Assembly: GCF_016887565.1 (NCBI RefSeq)
Contig: NZ_CP069396.1
Span: forward strand, 1,391,001-1,455,000
Length of the DNA: 64,000 nt
DNA from: Archangium violaceum
Lineage (GTDB): Bacteria; Myxococcota; Myxococcia; Myxococcales; Myxococcaceae
Direction: 5' to 3'
Numbering within the stretch: the first letter of the stretch is position 1; every line of letters starts with the position of its first letter. The position numbers were made by a program, and so were the translations under genes. The notes beneath the pieces are model-generated. The model made no database searches. It worked only from the letters and a program-made list of their open reading frames with translations, and was not told where the DNA came from. This document shows, in pieces, positions 23,946-54,785 of the stretch.

Positions 23946-25070
23946 ATGAAGCAGGCCAATACAGTGATCCCGTTGCCCATACGGAATCAGGTCGCCCTGG
24001 AGAGACCCAGGAACCAGGTGGATCTGGAGCGGCTGGTGTTGCGCGCACGCAGCGGCATCGAGCGGCGCTGGACATCCTGGCTGGCCAGGGGCGTGAAGAC
24101 ACTCTCGTATTACGGAGGCTTCTCCGCCTCCAGGCCGCTGGGAGAGGGCGAGGCGGTCATCCTCTTCTACCACAAGGTGCAGCGGCGGCCGGTGGGAGTC
24201 TGGGGCGAGCCGGTGCTCGATGTCCGGGAGTTCGAGCGGCATGCCCTCTTCCTGGCGCGCGAGTACCAACCGGTGCTCCTGTCCGAGCTCGTCGCGGGGC
24301 TCGCGGGACGGGCGAGATTGCCCCGCCGGGCCCTGGCGCTGACCTTCGATGATGGCTACCGCAACAACCTGTACCTCGTCGCGCCCATCCTCGCGCGCCA
24401 TGGCATCCCGGCCACCGTCTTCGTCACCACGGGGCTGGTGGGGACCGATCGCTGGATGTGGGCGTATGAGCTGGAGGAGCTCTTCTCCCGCAACCCGCCC
24501 GACCAGGTGTGCCGCGCGAGTGGAGACCCGGCCATCCTGCGGCTCGGCTCGCTCGGCTTGAGACCGCGAGTCCTGATGATGGCGTGCGTCGAGTACCTCA
24601 AGGAGCTGCCGCACGCGAGCATGCTCGGCATCGTGGAGCGGATGCGCGCATCGCTGCCGGTCCCGGTGAACGATGAGAACCGTTTCCTCTCCTGGGAGGA
24701 GGTGCGGGAGCTGTCGCGCCAGGGGTTCGAGATCGGAGCTCATACGGAGAACCACCCCATCCTCACGCGGCTCCCGCTCGCGGAGGTGGAGCGGGAGCTT
24801 CGGGCCTGCCGCGACACCCTCGAGGAGAAGCTGGGCGTGCGTCCGACGCTCTTCTCCTATCCCAACGGGGCCACGGACCCCGGGGTGACGGAGCTCGTGG
24901 GCCGCTACTTCGAGGCGGCGGTCACCACGCAGTCGGGAATCTGCTCGCGAGCGAGTGGGCTCCTCGAGCTTCCGCGCATCGGGGCGCCCGTTCCCGTGTC
25001 GGAGCTGGCCTTCGAGCTGACCTGGAACTATCTGCGGACAGAAGTGGCGCGGCCCGTGCCGGCACCGTGA
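23946..25070 (+). CDS. Polysaccharide deacetylase (NodB domain)
   Basis: Carbohydrate esterase family 4 protein of 374 residues. The NodB motifs are complete: TFDDGY with Asp135 and Asp136, the metal-binding His266 and His270 in AHTENHP, and FSYPNG near 303-308. The N-terminal 60 residues are basic and lack a clear signal peptide, so it probably acts in the cytoplasm or at the inner membrane face on a lipid- or nucleotide-linked sugar, removing N-acetyl groups. It is the first gene of a four-gene operon with acyltransferases and an aminotransferase; the next gene starts 24 bases on. Substrate unknown. Confidence 0.88.
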   Translation: MKQANTVIPLPIRNQVALERPRNQVDLERLVLRARSGIERRWTSWLARGVKTLSYYGGFSASRPLGEGEAVILFYHKVQRRPVGVWGEPVLDVREFERHALFLAREYQPVLLSELVAGLAGRARLPRRALALTFDDGYRNNLYLVAPILARHGIPATVFVTTGLVGTDRWMWAYELEELFSRNPPDQVCRASGDPAILRLGSLGLRPRVLMMACVEYLKELPHASMLGIVERMRASLPVPVNDENRFLSWEEVRELSRQGFEIGAHTENHPILTRLPLAEVERELRACRDTLEEKLGVRPTLFSYPNGATDPGVTELVGRYFEAAVTTQSGICSRASGLLELPRIGAPVPVSELAFELTWNYLRTEVARPVPAP

Positions 25071-25094
25071 GCAGCCGAGGGGGGAGGGGGGAAG

Positions 25095-26240
25095 ATGGAA
25101 CAGGCGGTCCGGTGGGAAGAGGTGCCCGGGCTCGACATCACCGTCGAGCAGCGGGTGGGGCTGGAGACCCTGTCCGGGTTCTCGTCCGAGTGGGACGCGC
25201 TCGCGCGAGCCACTCCTGGGGCGGGACCCTTCGCGCTCAGTGGTTGGACGCGGTTGTGGATGGAGAGCTTCGCCCCGGGTTCCACGCTGCGGGTGCTGCG
25301 TGCGAGCAGGGGCGGCCGGGCGATCGCCTTCGCTCCGCTCCTGGAGCGGCGCGGGCGTCTCGCGGGCGTGCCCGTGCGGCTGTGGCAGTCTCCGTCCAAC
25401 GAGCACTCGCAGCGGGTGGCGTGGGCGCTCGACGCGGCGCGCCCGGAGGAAGCCGTGCGCGGCGTCTGGGCGCACCTCCGGGAGGAGCCCTGGGAGGTGC
25501 TCCTCCTCAAGGACATCGAGGCGGGTGGCGTGGTGGACGCGGCGCTCGGCGCGGCCGCCGGAGAGGACGGCTTCCTGGTGGCGCGCTGGCCCTCGCTCGA
25601 GTCGCCGTGGCTTCCGGTGCTCTCCCGCGGCGCGCTCGAGGAGACGCTCGATGCCAGGTTCCGCGCCAACCTCCGGCGGCGGCGCAAGAAGCTCGCGCGG
25701 CAGGGCCCGCTCGTGCTGCGCCGTGTGGACGATGAGGCTTCCGTCTCCCGTGCGCTCGAGGAGGGGCTCGCGCTCGAAGGGAGCGGGTGGAAGGGGCGCG
25801 GTGGGACGGCCATCGTCTGCCGTCCGGAGACGCTCGCCTTCTACACGCGGCTGGCCCGGCTCGCCGCGTCGGGGGGATGGCTCTCCCTCTATACGCTCTC
25901 GGCGGGCGACCATCCCGTGGCCTTCCACTTCGGGCTGGAGTACGGGGGCCGCTACTACCTGCTCAAGCCCGGCTACGACGAGCGCTTCTCCGAGTGCTCT
26001 CCGGGCCAGCTCCTCGTCGAGGACGTGCTGGAGGAGCTCTCCCACCGGGGCACGGCGGAGTTCGATTTCCTGGGCCCGCGGATGACCTGGAAGCTCGACT
26101 GGACCGAGCGGCTCCGTTCTCACGTCTGGTTGTTCATCGTCCGGCCCTCGCTCAAGGGTCGGCTCCTGCACGCGGCTCGCTTCCGCCATGGACCGGCGCT
26201 GAAGCGATGGATTCGGGAGGTGGGTGGATGGAAACATTGA
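25095..26240 (+). CDS. CelD/BcsL-type (FemAB-like) GNAT acyltransferase
   Basis: Protein of 381 residues with the double-GNAT layout of the Acetyltransf_6 group (COG5653; loosely FemAB-related). The second half carries the typical blocks: RFRANLRRRRKKLARQG, then LEGSGWKGRGGTA, a FYTRLARLAA segment, YYLLKPGYDERFSECSPGQLL and FDFLGPRMTWKLDW. Family members are tied to exopolysaccharide synthesis and transfer acyl or aminoacyl groups to amino sugars; the donor here is unknown. ATG 25095 follows GGGAGGGGGGAAG. Its stop overlaps the start of the aminotransferase gene, so translation is coupled. Confidence 0.85.
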   Translation: MEQAVRWEEVPGLDITVEQRVGLETLSGFSSEWDALARATPGAGPFALSGWTRLWMESFAPGSTLRVLRASRGGRAIAFAPLLERRGRLAGVPVRLWQSPSNEHSQRVAWALDAARPEEAVRGVWAHLREEPWEVLLLKDIEAGGVVDAALGAAAGEDGFLVARWPSLESPWLPVLSRGALEETLDARFRANLRRRRKKLARQGPLVLRRVDDEASVSRALEEGLALEGSGWKGRGGTAIVCRPETLAFYTRLARLAASGGWLSLYTLSAGDHPVAFHFGLEYGGRYYLLKPGYDERFSECSPGQLLVEDVLEELSHRGTAEFDFLGPRMTWKLDWTERLRSHVWLFIVRPSLKGRLLHAARFRHGPALKRWIREVGGWKH

Positions 26241-27364
26241 TGGCCATTCCGTCGATGCCGGACCTCGGCCCGGCGCAACTGCTGCCGCGCCGGGGCGGCA
26301 AGGTGCTCTTTCCCTTCAACAGGCACGGGCTCGAGCTGACCTACCTCGGCCGCAACGCCGTCTGGCGGGCCGCCAGGATGCTGGGGCTCGAAGGGTGCGA
26401 GGTCATCGTCCCGGCGTACCACCATGGTGTGGAAGTCTCGGCCCTGCTCCACGCGGGAGCGCGGCTCCGGTTCGCGCGCGTGGATGCGTCGGGACGGTTG
26501 GATCCGGACGATGTCCGAGCGCGCGTGGGCCCTCGCACGCGCGCCATCTATGTCATTCATTACGCGGGGTTCCCCCAGCCGCTCGATGCGCTGCTGGAGA
26601 TCGCCCGCGAGGCTGGCGCCTTCCTGATCGAGGACTGCGCGCTGTCGCTCTTCTCCCGCGAGGGCGTGTATCCGCTGGGAAGCAGGGGCGATGCCGCCAT
26701 CTTCTGTTTCTACAAAACGCTCCCCGTGCCTCATGGCGGAGGTCTGCTCCTGCGAGAGGCTCACGCGGAGCGGCTCGCGGACCTGGCACCTCCTCCGCTC
26801 CTGCCAACGCTCTCGCACATGGCTGGCTCGATGCTGGTGGGTGCCGAGCGCCGGTTCCAGGGTCCGGGCAGGTGGCTGCGCTCGATGGCGAAGACCTTCA
26901 CCGGGCGCGTCCGGGCCCGGGCGCGGCTCGAGGACGTTCCGGTGGGAACCCAGGCCTTCGAGCCGGGAGCGGTTCATCTCGGGATGAGCCCCGTCGTCGC
27001 GAGGGCGCTGGGGTCCGTGGACGCGGAGCAGGTGGTGCGCCGCCGCCGCGCCAACTGGCTCTTTCTCCACGAGCGGATCGGCAGGCCCGAGCGAGCGACG
27101 TGGTCCTCGCTGCCGCCAGGGGTGTGCCCGCTCTTCTATGCGCTGGAGGTGGAGGACAAGGCTCGCGCCCTGCGCCTGCTGTGGTCACGGGGCATCCAGG
27201 CGGTCGATTTCTGGAGGTCCGGTCATCCCGCAGCCTCGTGCGAGCGCTTCCCCGAGGTGGAGGCACTGCGCCAGCGGGTGGTGGAGCTCCCCTGTCATCA
27301 AGCGCTCGGCTCCGAGGAGCTCGAGCATGTCGCGAAGGTGGCGAGGGAGGCGCTGGAGGCATGA
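26228..27364 (+). CDS. DegT/DnrJ/EryC1-type PLP aminotransferase
   Basis: PLP-dependent fold-type I enzyme of 378 residues, DegT-like. Visible features are the N-terminal GRNAVWRAARML and VPAYHHGVEVSALLHAGA cofactor-binding blocks, YVIHYAGFPQPL, the acidic pair Glu135-Asp136 in LIEDCAL that holds the pyridine nitrogen, and Lys163 in FCFYKTLPVPHGG as the Schiff-base lysine. It should make an amino sugar or use a related sugar nucleotide; the GEGG pattern of classic sugar aminotransferases is replaced by PVPHGGG, so the substrate may differ. ATG 26228 has GGGAGG six bases upstream and overlaps the previous gene by 13 bases; ATG 26240 is an alternative. Confidence 0.86.
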   Translation: METLMAIPSMPDLGPAQLLPRRGGKVLFPFNRHGLELTYLGRNAVWRAARMLGLEGCEVIVPAYHHGVEVSALLHAGARLRFARVDASGRLDPDDVRARVGPRTRAIYVIHYAGFPQPLDALLEIAREAGAFLIEDCALSLFSREGVYPLGSRGDAAIFCFYKTLPVPHGGGLLLREAHAERLADLAPPPLLPTLSHMAGSMLVGAERRFQGPGRWLRSMAKTFTGRVRARARLEDVPVGTQAFEPGAVHLGMSPVVARALGSVDAEQVVRRRRANWLFLHERIGRPERATWSSLPPGVCPLFYALEVEDKARALRLLWSRGIQAVDFWRSGHPAASCERFPEVEALRQRVVELPCHQALGSEELEHVAKVAREALEA

Positions 27365-28530
27365 ACAGCCGCTGGACAGTGGGCATCGTGAGGGAGACGC
27401 GGGGCTTCCTGGCGCTCCGGGACGAGTGGCGGCGCTTGTACGGGTCCGTCCGGGCGCGCGTCTTCAACACCTGGGAATGGCTCTTCGGCTGGCACCTCCA
27501 CTTCGGCAGGGAGCGGCGGCTCTTCATCCTCACGGCACGGGACGAGACGGGCGGGCTCGTCGGAGTGCTGCCGCTCTCCATCGAGGAGCAGCGGTGGGCA
27601 GGTGGCCGCCTCCGGTGGCTCCGGTTCCTGGGGGATGAGGCCGTGGGCAGCGACTACCTGGATGCCATCCTCCGGCCCGGGGATGAGCCGGCCATCGCCG
27701 GGGCGCTGGTGGATGCGCTCGCGAGCACCTGGCGCGAGTGGGACATCCTGGAGCTGGCCGACATGGAGGAGACGTCTCCCCTCGTGGCGCTCCTGAGAGC
27801 GCGCTGCGAGGCTCGAGGGTGGCACCTGGAGAGCACCGGGCGGAACCGCTGTCCGTACGAGGCTTTCGAGGTGGGCGAGAGCTTCGACACCCTGCTGGCC
27901 CGGGTGCCCCGGGCCGACAACTACCTGCGCCGTCGCAAGTGGCTCGAACGCCAGAAGGGCTTCGCCATCACGAAGGCGGAGGACCCCGAGGCGCTCGCCC
28001 TCGCGCTGCCCGAGTTCTTCCGGTTGCATGCCCTGCGTTGGGGAGCGCGCAGCTCGCTCGATGCGCCAGACGTCCAGGAGTTCCACCGTGCGGTGGTGCC
28101 GCTCCTGGCGGCGGAGGGAAAGGTCCGCGTCTACCTGCTGTCCGTGGAGGGCAGGGCGGTGGCATCGGTCTACGCCCTGCTGCACGGGCGCACCTTCAGT
28201 TATTACAACGCGGGATATGACCCCGAGTGGAAGGCGCGGAGCGTGGGGCTCGTCCTCGTGGGCGAGACGTTCCGCGATGCGCTGGCCGAGGGCTTTTCCG
28301 AGTACGACTTCCTGCGCGGTGTCGAGGCGTACAAGTCGGACTGGACGCGGGGGCTCCGGACGACGGTGCGGCTGCGCATCACCCGGCCGGCGAGCCTCGG
28401 CGATTGGGTCGTGCGTGCCCAGGCGCTCGAACAGACGGCCCGAGGCGTGCTCCGGGATGCGCTCCCCGGGGAGGTGCTCACACGCCTCCGGCGGTTGCGG
28501 TCGCGGGGTCAGGAGGTACCGGTGAGGTGA
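27361..28530 (+). CDS. Second CelD/BcsL-type (FemAB-like) acyltransferase
   Basis: Protein of 389 residues of the same Acetyltransf_6 group as the gene at 25095 but clearly diverged. Recognisable parts are FNTWEWLFGWHLHFG near the N-terminus, NYLRRRKWLERQKG, FFRLHALRWGARSSLD, YAL-HGRTFSYYNAGYDPEW and YDFLRGVEAYKSDWTRG. The ATG overlaps the aminotransferase stop (ATGA). Two different acyltransferases around an aminotransferase suggest two distinct acylations, or one enzyme acting on a newly made amino group and one on a deacetylated one. This ends the operon; the convergent CULT gene stops 9 bases away. Confidence 0.85.
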   Translation: MNSRWTVGIVRETRGFLALRDEWRRLYGSVRARVFNTWEWLFGWHLHFGRERRLFILTARDETGGLVGVLPLSIEEQRWAGGRLRWLRFLGDEAVGSDYLDAILRPGDEPAIAGALVDALASTWREWDILELADMEETSPLVALLRARCEARGWHLESTGRNRCPYEAFEVGESFDTLLARVPRADNYLRRRKWLERQKGFAITKAEDPEALALALPEFFRLHALRWGARSSLDAPDVQEFHRAVVPLLAAEGKVRVYLLSVEGRAVASVYALLHGRTFSYYNAGYDPEWKARSVGLVLVGETFRDALAEGFSEYDFLRGVEAYKSDWTRGLRTTVRLRITRPASLGDWVVRAQALEQTARGVLRDALPGEVLTRLRRLRSRGQEVPVR

Positions 28531-28539
28531 TGGAGGCGC

Positions 28540-28962
28540 TCAGCTCGGGGCGGTGAGCCGGTCCAGGACGAGGGCGAGGAAGTCGCTCTCGCCGTGGAAG
28601 GCCCAGCCCAGGTGCGTCTTGCAGGCGGCGCACAGGGCGTACTCCCAGACGAAGCCCGGGAACCAGCTCGCCTCCGCGGTGAGCGGGCCGATGACGAGGC
28701 AGCCCTCGGCCCGCGCGAAGCAGCCGAAGTGGAAGACGAACCCGGATGGGTTCACGCGCGTGTGGCCGTGCCGGCCGTTGACGGTGGTGCGGTCTCGCTC
28801 GTGGGTGATGACGTGGCCGCACCGCGCGCAGCACAGGGGCGTCTCCGGAGCTCGGGATTCGGTGTCTTCCTTTGACTGGCTGGTGGGCGTGGTCTCGGTG
28901 GGCGCCGGGGGCTTGCCCTTGAGTCGTCGTGCTTCAGGGGTTGGCCAGGGGGACGGATTCAT
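28540..28962 (-). CDS. CULT-domain (cereblon-like ligand-binding) protein
   Basis: Zinc-binding protein of 140 residues. After a polar N-terminal tail of about 40 residues comes a single CULT domain, the fold that binds thalidomide in human cereblon and is known from some bacteria. Two CxxC zinc pairs are present (Cys45-Cys48 in CARC, Cys111-Cys114 in CAAC). All three aromatic-cage tryptophans are in place: Trp100 in SWFPG, Trp106 in FVWEYAL and Trp120 in HLGW. GFVFHFGCF and FLALVLDRL complete the family pattern. No Lon-like domain is attached. It should bind a uracil- or imide-like small molecule; the natural role of bacterial forms is unknown. ATG 28962 is used; an upstream GTG at 28992 lies inside a repeat. 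Confidence 0.88.
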   Translation of the reverse strand: MNPSPWPTPEARRLKGKPPAPTETTPTSQSKEDTESRAPETPLCCARCGHVITHERDRTTVNGRHGHTRVNPSGFVFHFGCFARAEGCLVIGPLTAEASWFPGFVWEYALCAACKTHLGWAFHGESDFLALVLDRLTAPS

Positions 28963-28984
28963 GGCTCGGACGAACGGACGGTAG

Positions 28985-29019
28985 ACCCTCACCCTGTCCC
29001 TCTCCCAGAGGGAGAGGGG
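28985..29019 (-). repeat. REP-like palindromic repeat, copy B
   Basis: Inverted copy of the element at 21358: ACCCTCACCCTG then arms CCCTCTCCC and GGGAGAGGG around AGA. It lies between the divergent CULT and ABC-transporter genes. Confidence 0.85.
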
Positions 29020-52485: not shown

Positions 52486-52625
52486 GGTGGACTCCTCGAG
52501 AAGGACAGGTCGTACGCGGAAGCAGGAAGCGAGGGGAGACCCGGGGGATGGCTCGCTTCCGTGAGTAGGGGCACCATGCTATCCCCCAGGCTTGGGCCGT
52601 CAAAGGGTTTGGAGAGGTGACTGTG

Positions 52626-54785
52626 ATGCTGCGCAAGGTCCTCGCAACGGTGCTGCTGCTGGGGGCGCTCTCGGGATGTACCGTACCGGCTCGGACGTGC
52701 ACGACGGACGCTGATTGTCAGGCGAACGGTGGCGATGGCCTCTGCGATCTGCGGGTGAATCTCTGCTACGCGGGTAGCAAGGAAGTCAGTGGCGACCAGT
52801 GCGATCCGGCGTGTGCGCCGTATCAGGCGTGTACGAAGTCGAACGGCTGCGTGCCGAGGTACACGGGGCTGGTGGTGACGCCGGGTGACGGTGGCCTGGT
52901 GGGTGGAGGCGTGGTCGCGGTGCGGGCGGAGTTGGTTGCGGACCCTACGTTCGAGCTGAAATTCCCTGAGACCCTGAGCTTCAGCGTGGTTCGGAGCGAC
53001 GGCGGAACGGGCGGTTCGCTGAGCGCGGTCCCGGGAAACGCGGGCGTCTACACCGCTCAGTGGACACCGCCAGCCGGAGATGGAGTGTTCCTCCTGACTG
53101 CGGCGTATCCGGATGGTGGTAGCCCGAGCACCACGGTTCATCTGACGGTGGATGCGACTCCGCCTTCCTTCACGGTCATAGTGCCTGCGGCGGATGCGGG
53201 CGTTCCGGATGGTGGCTTTGCCTACGCTGATCCCATGGCTGTGACAGCGTGGCGTAGGGATCAAACTGTAACGATACGAGTGGAGTCTGATTCGGCGGAC
53301 TTGGATCCGAGCAGCCTGCGCGTGGTTGTGCGTGGACATGGTGGCGGAGCATCCGTGACAGATCTATCACTCGCCCCTGTGACTCCTTGTGGCAGGTTGT
53401 TTTGCGGAACCGTTGATATTCCTCTATGGCGACCTGGACTGCCCGACTTCCGTGGGAATTTCACTGTCGAGGTGACGGCGAAGGACCAGTTGGGCAATGA
53501 GCGCATGTTGACGGGAACTATCCCGGTGACACGCTGGAAGTGGTCATTCAATGGGGCATCTGGGTCAATCGAAGCGACACCCGCAGTCGGTCAATTGGGC
53601 ACTATCTACTTTGGTACGAGTGATTCCAATGGAAAGGTGTTTGCTCTCAACCCCGAGGGTACGAAGAAATGGGAAACCTCATTGGGCAAGGTGGTGGGGA
53701 GTCCTGCTTTGGGGGCGTTTTCCGCAGGCACTGAGTTGGTGTACGTCGGAGCCAACAGCAGCAGTGGCGGGGTGCTTTATGCCTTGGGCGCAGATGGTGG
53801 CGTGTCGACGAGGTGCCCAGGTGGCAATGCATCTGGTGAGATTTTGGCGTCCGTTGCGATTGCGAGCACAAGGTTCGACAACGAGAGCGCTCCTCTTGAG
53901 ACAGCTATTGCGCTGGGAAATGGTGACGCACTGATTTCTCTTCGGCCTGAGGCCATAGGCTCACGCCTGTGCAGGACCGATCTGCTGAATGCAAGTCAAA
54001 GCAGCCAGCCAGGCGCTAGCATCATAGTAAAGGGCTCGGATGCTTACTTTAGCGCTCTGGATACCAAGGTTTGGAGCTACCAGTTCTCGGGTAGTTCTGG
54101 CTGGGCAGCCAAGGCTGGTTTCGCTGCACCGACGATTGGCACTCTGATTACTGGGCTGGGCTTCGCGACTGGTAATAGGGTCGTCGGAGCTGGAGGACTG
54201 ATTGCACCGCAGTCAGGAGGAGTATTTTCCTTCCTTGAGACTGATGGCTCCGGGCTTTGGAAGTATCCGGACCCGTTCACACAGTCCACCCCCGTTCGTA
54301 ATATGTCCATTGGCGCCGGAAACCAGCTCTTCTTCGGTCGTGAAGTTTCTTCAGGACGCGCGGACATGACGTCCATCAATCTTCTTGCGACAGATCCTCG
54401 TGCTACCGCGACGAATGCGGGCAGTTTCCCGGCAGCTCCAGTGCTGGGGAAACAGGGGATATTCTACACTGCTTCCTACACAGGTTCTGTGGTCGGCGTT
54501 GGTGAAGTATCTGCCTGGAATGCGACCAATCTGACCAATGTATGGAGGCTTAGTGATAGCGTAGGCCGTACCAACGCATCGCCGACACTCGATTGCGCCC
54601 GTAGTCCCGATGGCACTGCTGTCTCTGCGCCTCACGGCGTACTGTATGTTCCCTCGATTGATGGCAAGCTGTACGCCTTCGTCGTCGACAGCCCAGGTCT
54701 CGACCCGGATGCGCCGTGGCCCAAGTACCAGCATGACGCTCGCAACACCGGCAACCCGAATACCCCTATCTCCTCGTGCCCGTGA
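52626..54785 (+). CDS. PQQ-type beta-propeller lipoprotein
   Basis: Lipoprotein of 719 residues: lipobox LSGC, then a Cys-rich segment (CTTDADCQANGGDGLCDLRVNLC), several Ig-like beta domains (about 75-290) and a C-terminal beta-propeller with PQQ-like repeats (SIEATPAVGQLGTIYFG, KVFALNPEGTKKW, VYVGANSSSGGVLYALG). ATG 52626 follows GGAGAGG; the in-frame GTG at 52617 overlaps that site. A possible TATCCC -10 with TGC lies at 52577-52585. Base composition falls from about 53.5 kb: two sampled 60-base lines have 55% and 57% G+C against 65-67% in two neighbouring genes, and AT-ending codons rise, hinting at acquisition or relaxed codon use. Confidence 0.82.
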   Translation: MLRKVLATVLLLGALSGCTVPARTCTTDADCQANGGDGLCDLRVNLCYAGSKEVSGDQCDPACAPYQACTKSNGCVPRYTGLVVTPGDGGLVGGGVVAVRAELVADPTFELKFPETLSFSVVRSDGGTGGSLSAVPGNAGVYTAQWTPPAGDGVFLLTAAYPDGGSPSTTVHLTVDATPPSFTVIVPAADAGVPDGGFAYADPMAVTAWRRDQTVTIRVESDSADLDPSSLRVVVRGHGGGASVTDLSLAPVTPCGRLFCGTVDIPLWRPGLPDFRGNFTVEVTAKDQLGNERMLTGTIPVTRWKWSFNGASGSIEATPAVGQLGTIYFGTSDSNGKVFALNPEGTKKWETSLGKVVGSPALGAFSAGTELVYVGANSSSGGVLYALGADGGVSTRCPGGNASGEILASVAIASTRFDNESAPLETAIALGNGDALISLRPEAIGSRLCRTDLLNASQSSQPGASIIVKGSDAYFSALDTKVWSYQFSGSSGWAAKAGFAAPTIGTLITGLGFATGNRVVGAGGLIAPQSGGVFSFLETDGSGLWKYPDPFTQSTPVRNMSIGAGNQLFFGREVSSGRADMTSINLLATDPRATATNAGSFPAAPVLGKQGIFYTASYTGSVVGVGEVSAWNATNLTNVWRLSDSVGRTNASPTLDCARSPDGTAVSAPHGVLYVPSIDGKLYAFVVDSPGLDPDAPWPKYQHDARNTGNPNTPISSCP

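Follow-up and report, generated by a model that had tools for sequence, protein, structure and literature searches.

The Exo spore-coat pathway of Myxococcus xanthus is the closest described relative of the genes considered here. Its nine-gene exoA-I locus is essential for spore-coat synthesis (PMC3858216), and the ExoA protein is 190 aa long (PMC9601211). The flippase of the spore coat is ExoM, and exoN is a serine-acetyltransferase-like gene (PMC7484181). The spore-coat material of M. xanthus has been described as chains of GalNAc with possible glucose and glycine decorations (PMC9603273) and perhaps with glycine-rich bridges (PMC12288465). In the literature searched, no biochemical data were found on any protein of the ExoG, ExoH or ExoI type. 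A second comparison comes from the holdfast of Caulobacter, where HfsH (a deacetylase) and HfsK (a tandem GNAT) bring a deacetylase and a FemX-like enzyme to bear on one polysaccharide, as is proposed here for the cassette. Unlike the cassette, this pair has no aminotransferase, and its genes are unlinked.

Layout of the cassette

The window, which is the whole stretch of DNA that was analysed, covers 64,000 nucleotides of an Archangium violaceum genome of 13.2 Mb in a single contig. It carries four genes on the + strand, called A to D here. A (23946..25070, 374 aa, PF01522) encodes a predicted cytoplasmic polysaccharide deacetylase of the NodB/CE4 type, a probable diverged paralog of ExoL. 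B (25095..26240, 381 aa, PF13480) encodes a predicted tandem-GNAT, FemX-like N-acyl/aminoacyltransferase, a paralog of ExoG. C (26228..27364, 378 aa, PF01041) encodes a predicted PLP sugar aminotransferase of the DegT family, a paralog of ExoH, and D (27361..28530, 389 aa, PF13480) a second predicted tandem-GNAT N-acyl/aminoacyltransferase, this one a paralog of ExoI. In the ORF calls, 24 bases separate A from B, while B and C overlap by 13 bases and C and D by 4.

All four products score above the curated Pfam family cut-offs: A for Polysacc_deac_1 (87.7 bits against 23.1), B and D for Acetyltransf_6 (127.4 and 117.2 bits against 22) and C for DegT_DnrJ_EryC1 (82.5 bits against 19.8). The catalytic DD of A (D135/D136) and its metal-binding HxxxH (H266, H270), found in the motifs TFDDG and HTxxH, are invariant in 16 aligned homologs, and A reaches 34.5 bits against the HfsH profile, which has a cut-off of 400. 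In C, K163 and D136 are invariant in 24 aligned homologs, and in the alignment with TlmJ (5uid) K163 falls on the equivalent lysine. The predicted model of C (pLDDT 90.4) and its profile both match TlmJ, ArnB, WbpE and similar enzymes, and on this modelled fold C is a sugar-aminotransferase-like PLP enzyme by predicted activity. The first ~56 positions of the DegT profile are unmatched in C, so its substrate site may differ.

The flanking genes, which encode an amylase, a pullulanase, a nickel-insertion protein, a histone-deacetylase-like protein, an ABC transporter and an FAD monooxygenase, are unrelated to the cassette. No glycosyltransferase or flippase is present among 10 flanking genes (14123-34826) and the two immediate neighbours, and no exo-locus partner (OPX, Wzz, kinase or sugar-phosphate transferase) is present among the flanking genes at 14123-34826. 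Neither a signal-peptide-like stretch nor a transmembrane hydrophobic stretch is found in A, B, C or D, so the enzymes would be expected to work in the cytoplasm, with a nucleotide sugar or a lipid-linked unit as their substrate. The GC content at the third codon position of A to D (0.84-0.89) is at the level of the surrounding genes; a recent foreign origin, as judged by composition, is unsupported, since the GC of the cassette matches that of its neighbours.

Two other features of the window can be recorded. A small convergent gene right downstream of D (28540-28992) has a weak, sub-cut-off Yippee/Mis18-like match and is kept at the same site in the related genome G045. A long open frame at 52617-54785 (722 aa) differs from its neighbours in that its GC is almost the same at each codon position, and it may not be an ordinary gene.

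Counterparts in the Exo pathway

The exo locus of the same genome lies at 7.78 Mb, 6.4 Mb from the cassette, and holds GNAT, DegT and GNAT genes in the same order as B-C-D. Each of the three is closest to its positional counterpart in that locus, exoG, exoH and exoI, respectively (45-48%). B is 46-47% identical to ExoG compared to 27% to ExoI, and D is 48% identical to ExoI compared to 29% to ExoG, which puts the GNAT cross-matches to the exo locus at 27-29%. C is 45-46% identical to ExoH at 7.78 Mb, its sole strong paralog in the genome. Upstream of the resident GNAT-DegT-GNAT genes lie CofD, a sugar-phosphate transferase and a kinase. A Myxococcus-like relative has a longer row, consisting of OPX (190 aa), a protein in the barrel position, Wzz, kinase, sugar-phosphate transferase, CofD, GNAT, DegT and GNAT. 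Judged by gene order, family content and the length of ExoA rather than by a direct match to an M. xanthus record, this row is the exoA-I layout. B-C-D are demonstrably homologous to ExoG-ExoH-ExoI, keep the same order and have descended as a block.

The deacetylase stands further away. The best paralog of A in its own genome is a NodB gene in the ExoL position, beside an ExoM-type flippase (29-30% identity, E 5e-27). The row that holds it (NodB, flippase, hexapeptide transferase, glycosyltransferase, glycosyltransferase) fits the layout of exoL-exoP, and by this gene order the NodB gene is taken to be exoL, the deacetylase gene of the pathway. The homologs of A form a clade of their own (support 100/100). 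A is probably a distant paralog of ExoL, but at 29% identity the direct link to ExoL, rather than to another NodB protein, is of moderate strength.

In other Myxococcota, the NodB gene sits with the other three families. For example, a single locus of Anaeromyxobacter terrae contains Wzz, a kinase, a PHPT sugar-phosphate transferase, GNAT, DegT, GNAT, NodB and Wzy, and NodB follows the D-type gene in at least 11 loci. Where a NodB gene lies directly 3' of an ExoI-type gene, as in Anaeromyxobacter and other Myxococcota, its product is 38-46% identical to the ExoL of the Archangium genome that holds the window. With NodB joined to GNAT-DegT-GNAT in this way, the four families form one set in Exo-type pathways.

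Compared with ExoG-ExoH-ExoI and ExoL of M. xanthus, the cassette has the same four families, the same GNAT-DegT-GNAT order, the positional counterparts as closest matches and a predicted cytoplasmic location. It differs in that its proteins are about 43-50% identical to the Exo proteins (29% for A and ExoL) and form a separate clade present in few genomes. Its NodB gene is directly upstream, whereas in the M. xanthus Exo pathway the deacetylase sits in another locus, and, unlike exoA-I, it is without adjacent export or assembly genes. In Anaeromyxobacter and other Myxococcota, exo-type loci such as L059 and L052 have all four families contiguous, as in the cassette, but there NodB is downstream of the second GNAT and the genes stand among those for Wzz, a kinase, a sugar-phosphate transferase and Wzy, as those of the cassette do not.

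A sequence-only reading of this DNA had described four same-strand genes with the gap and overlaps given above, a complete NodB deacetylase, a DegT-like PLP enzyme with its lysine, two divergent acyltransferases and no glycosyltransferase or flippase. The ORF coordinates, the Pfam scores and invariant active-site residues of A and C, and the opposite affinities of B and D all bear this out, the absence of glycosyltransferase and flippase holding for the flanking and neighbouring genes tested. Its further statement that no characterised system has this set has to be given up, since the Exo/MASC spore-coat pathway includes ExoG-ExoH-ExoI and a NodB deacetylase, and since Anaeromyxobacter and other Myxococcota have exo-type loci in which these four families adjoin one another. 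A published pathway largely matches the set, short of the exact product chemistry. A module that tailors a sugar, freeing or installing amino groups on it and N-acylating them, is still the best reading, and it is rather probable, from the homology and the proposed mechanism taken together, that the cassette is a relocated paralog of the Exo block that modifies the repeat unit, with an amine-acylating mechanism. With the supposed new system removed, what still holds interest is the chemistry of ExoG-ExoH-ExoI, together with the way the genes present in the cassette vary among close relatives.

A pair of the ExoH-ExoI type (about 36% and 31-33%) also occurs in the soil Chloroflexi MAGs L069, L070 and L071, so the group reaches beyond the Myxococcota.

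Distribution and history

A survey of 145 genomes of the order separates ExoH-type matches to C (41-51% identity) from cassette-type C (55-92%). By hand count, about 102 of the genomes have an ExoH-type gene. Cassette-type C is present in 8, all of which also have an ExoH-type gene elsewhere. The C proteins of the cassettes form one clade (support 100/99), which lies outside the ExoH clade to which the Archangium exo copies belong, and by this tree the cassette is an old paralogous lineage. The D proteins of the Archangium cassettes form a clade as well (SH-aLRT 100), and the trees of A, C and D each join the window copy to G045. The genomic site varies between species; the flanks of the window are common to G045 only, and no conserved flanking partners of the Archangium cassettes are common between sites, save for G045 at the site of the window. 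A recent duplication of the Archangium exo genes was also considered and is ruled out by the separate clade of cassette C proteins (100/99).

The full A-B-C-D order is not confined to one strain, being found in the window, in A. lansinium and in A. violaceum, where C is frameshifted or misread. In the last of these, strain Cb vi76, C is split over two frames (L056:4769-5898), which would reflect either a pseudogene or an error in the draft assembly. Two genomes, G045 and G047, are without B, of which about the last 50-60 bases are left between A and C. The left breakpoints look different, so B may have been deleted separately in each. In G081, which lacks D, the genes A-B-C stand beside two polysaccharide-lyase genes, and G085 has the order B-D'-A-C. 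In G089, D' is divergent from C and is followed by a polysaccharide lyase, a flippase and A; the flippase is 53% identical to the ExoM of the Archangium genome that holds the window. The gene order of the cassette is not fixed. The polysaccharide-lyase genes (PF14099) adjoin the cassette at L047:6114-7343 in G089 and at L046:4563-6821 in G081.

Two further points of the sequence-only reading change with this record. A stand-alone module, as it was called, fits poorly with Exo genes that are scattered over several loci and with the ExoM-like flippase held in the G089 cassette. Nor can both acyltransferases be counted as part of the unit, since two congeners have lost B by deletion and a third relative has no D. 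These losses suggest that the steps of B and D are optional or are supplied by the resident ExoG and ExoI, and they mean that the full four-step scheme would not be obligatory.

The same losses, with the frameshifted C of the A. violaceum draft, might be expected of a chance cluster or a decaying remnant without function. Such an origin is very improbable given the intact frames, the invariant catalytic residues of A and C, a dN/dS of about 0.2-0.4 for all four genes (0.19-0.41, indicating purifying selection) and an order that recurs at different genomic sites.

A weightier alternative, if still the less probable one, is that the cassette works on a different surface polysaccharide, one that has nothing to do with spores and whose synthesis genes are elsewhere in the genome. 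The tree of C, in which the cassette is an old lineage instead of a late copy of the Archangium exo genes, is in keeping with this, as is the presence of the cassette always in addition to a resident ExoH-type gene. Lyase genes adjoin the cassette in G081 and G089, and G089 has its own flippase; however, the likeness of that flippase to ExoM points to an Exo-type glycan after all. For a relocated Exo-type block, the variation among relatives is a natural experiment: coat chemistry could be compared between related Archangium species that have A-B-C-D, those that have A-C-D and those that have no cassette.

Possible chemistry and the acyl donor

In the mechanism proposed for a relocated Exo block, C would transaminate a keto-sugar and/or A would strip an N-acetyl group, in the cytoplasm, from a nucleotide sugar or an undecaprenyl-linked oligosaccharide. 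B and D would then acylate the resulting amines. Their donor would more probably be an aminoacyl-tRNA, as in FemX, than acetyl-CoA, and glycine is the obvious candidate. Flipping and polymerisation of the modified unit would fall to Wzx/Wzy proteins encoded elsewhere, either those of the resident Exo pathway, giving a variant coat, or those of a second polysaccharide pathway.

The case for this donor comes from the fold of B. Neither B nor D matches the Pfam FemAB family, PF13480 being the only family found at E 0.01 or better. When the profiles of the two were searched by sequence against solved structures, no convincing relative came up (none for B, a best E of 0.06 for D), so a comparison of folds was needed. 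The AlphaFold model of B (pLDDT 91.8) has a tandem-GNAT fold, and the solved structures that match it best are FemX, FemA and the streptothricin aminoacyl-tRNA ligases Sba18/Sbb17, with Z of 20.6-22.3 (for FemX, Z 21-22 with 302-306 residues aligned and an rmsd of about 4). MprF-type domains follow at Z 16.4-17.7 and CoA-dependent tandem GNATs at 16.1 or less. The identity of B to the FemX/FemA/Sba18-type proteins, with which it has the tandem-GNAT fold in common, is about 10-16%, and a fold like that of FemX is no proof that the donor is an aminoacyl-tRNA. Together with the glycine reported in the coat, this fold favours aminoacyl transfer to amino sugars, and the model suggests a step in which an amino acid, perhaps glycine, is placed onto them. 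The best structural matches of B also offer a specific possible source of the reported Myxococcus coat glycine.

It is possible, though rather unlikely, that B and D, with the same homology, are instead acyl-CoA-dependent N-acetyl- or acyltransferases that re-acetylate amino sugars in the manner of HfsK and HfsH. PF13480 is annotated as an acetyltransferase domain. HfsK and HfsH have been proposed to act in one pathway, with HfsK perhaps acylating the amines exposed by HfsH; the authors of that study found FemX to be the closest known structure to HfsK and the donor hard to predict (PMC5362036). Against an acyl-CoA donor, the aminoacyl-tRNA-dependent enzymes match B better than the CoA-dependent tandem GNATs do, by several Z units, and glycine has been reported in the coat (PMC9603273, PMC12288465).

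An aminoacyl-tRNA donor for B and D could be extended, as a tentative and somewhat doubtful proposal, to the whole group. The ExoG/ExoI-type proteins, including B and D, might be glycyl-tRNA-dependent and act on undecaprenyl-linked amino sugars, and spore coats and a related second glycan might be decorated with amino acids in a build like that of peptidoglycan interpeptide bridges. If this were true, the coat and the second glycan could possibly be peptide-cross-linked polysaccharides.

A third ExoG-like tandem-GNAT lineage, about 40-42% identical to B, adjoins very large genes in other genomes of the family (L113:8237-9469 and L114:7977-9176), and in L113 an AsmA-like gene lies near the ExoG-like gene.
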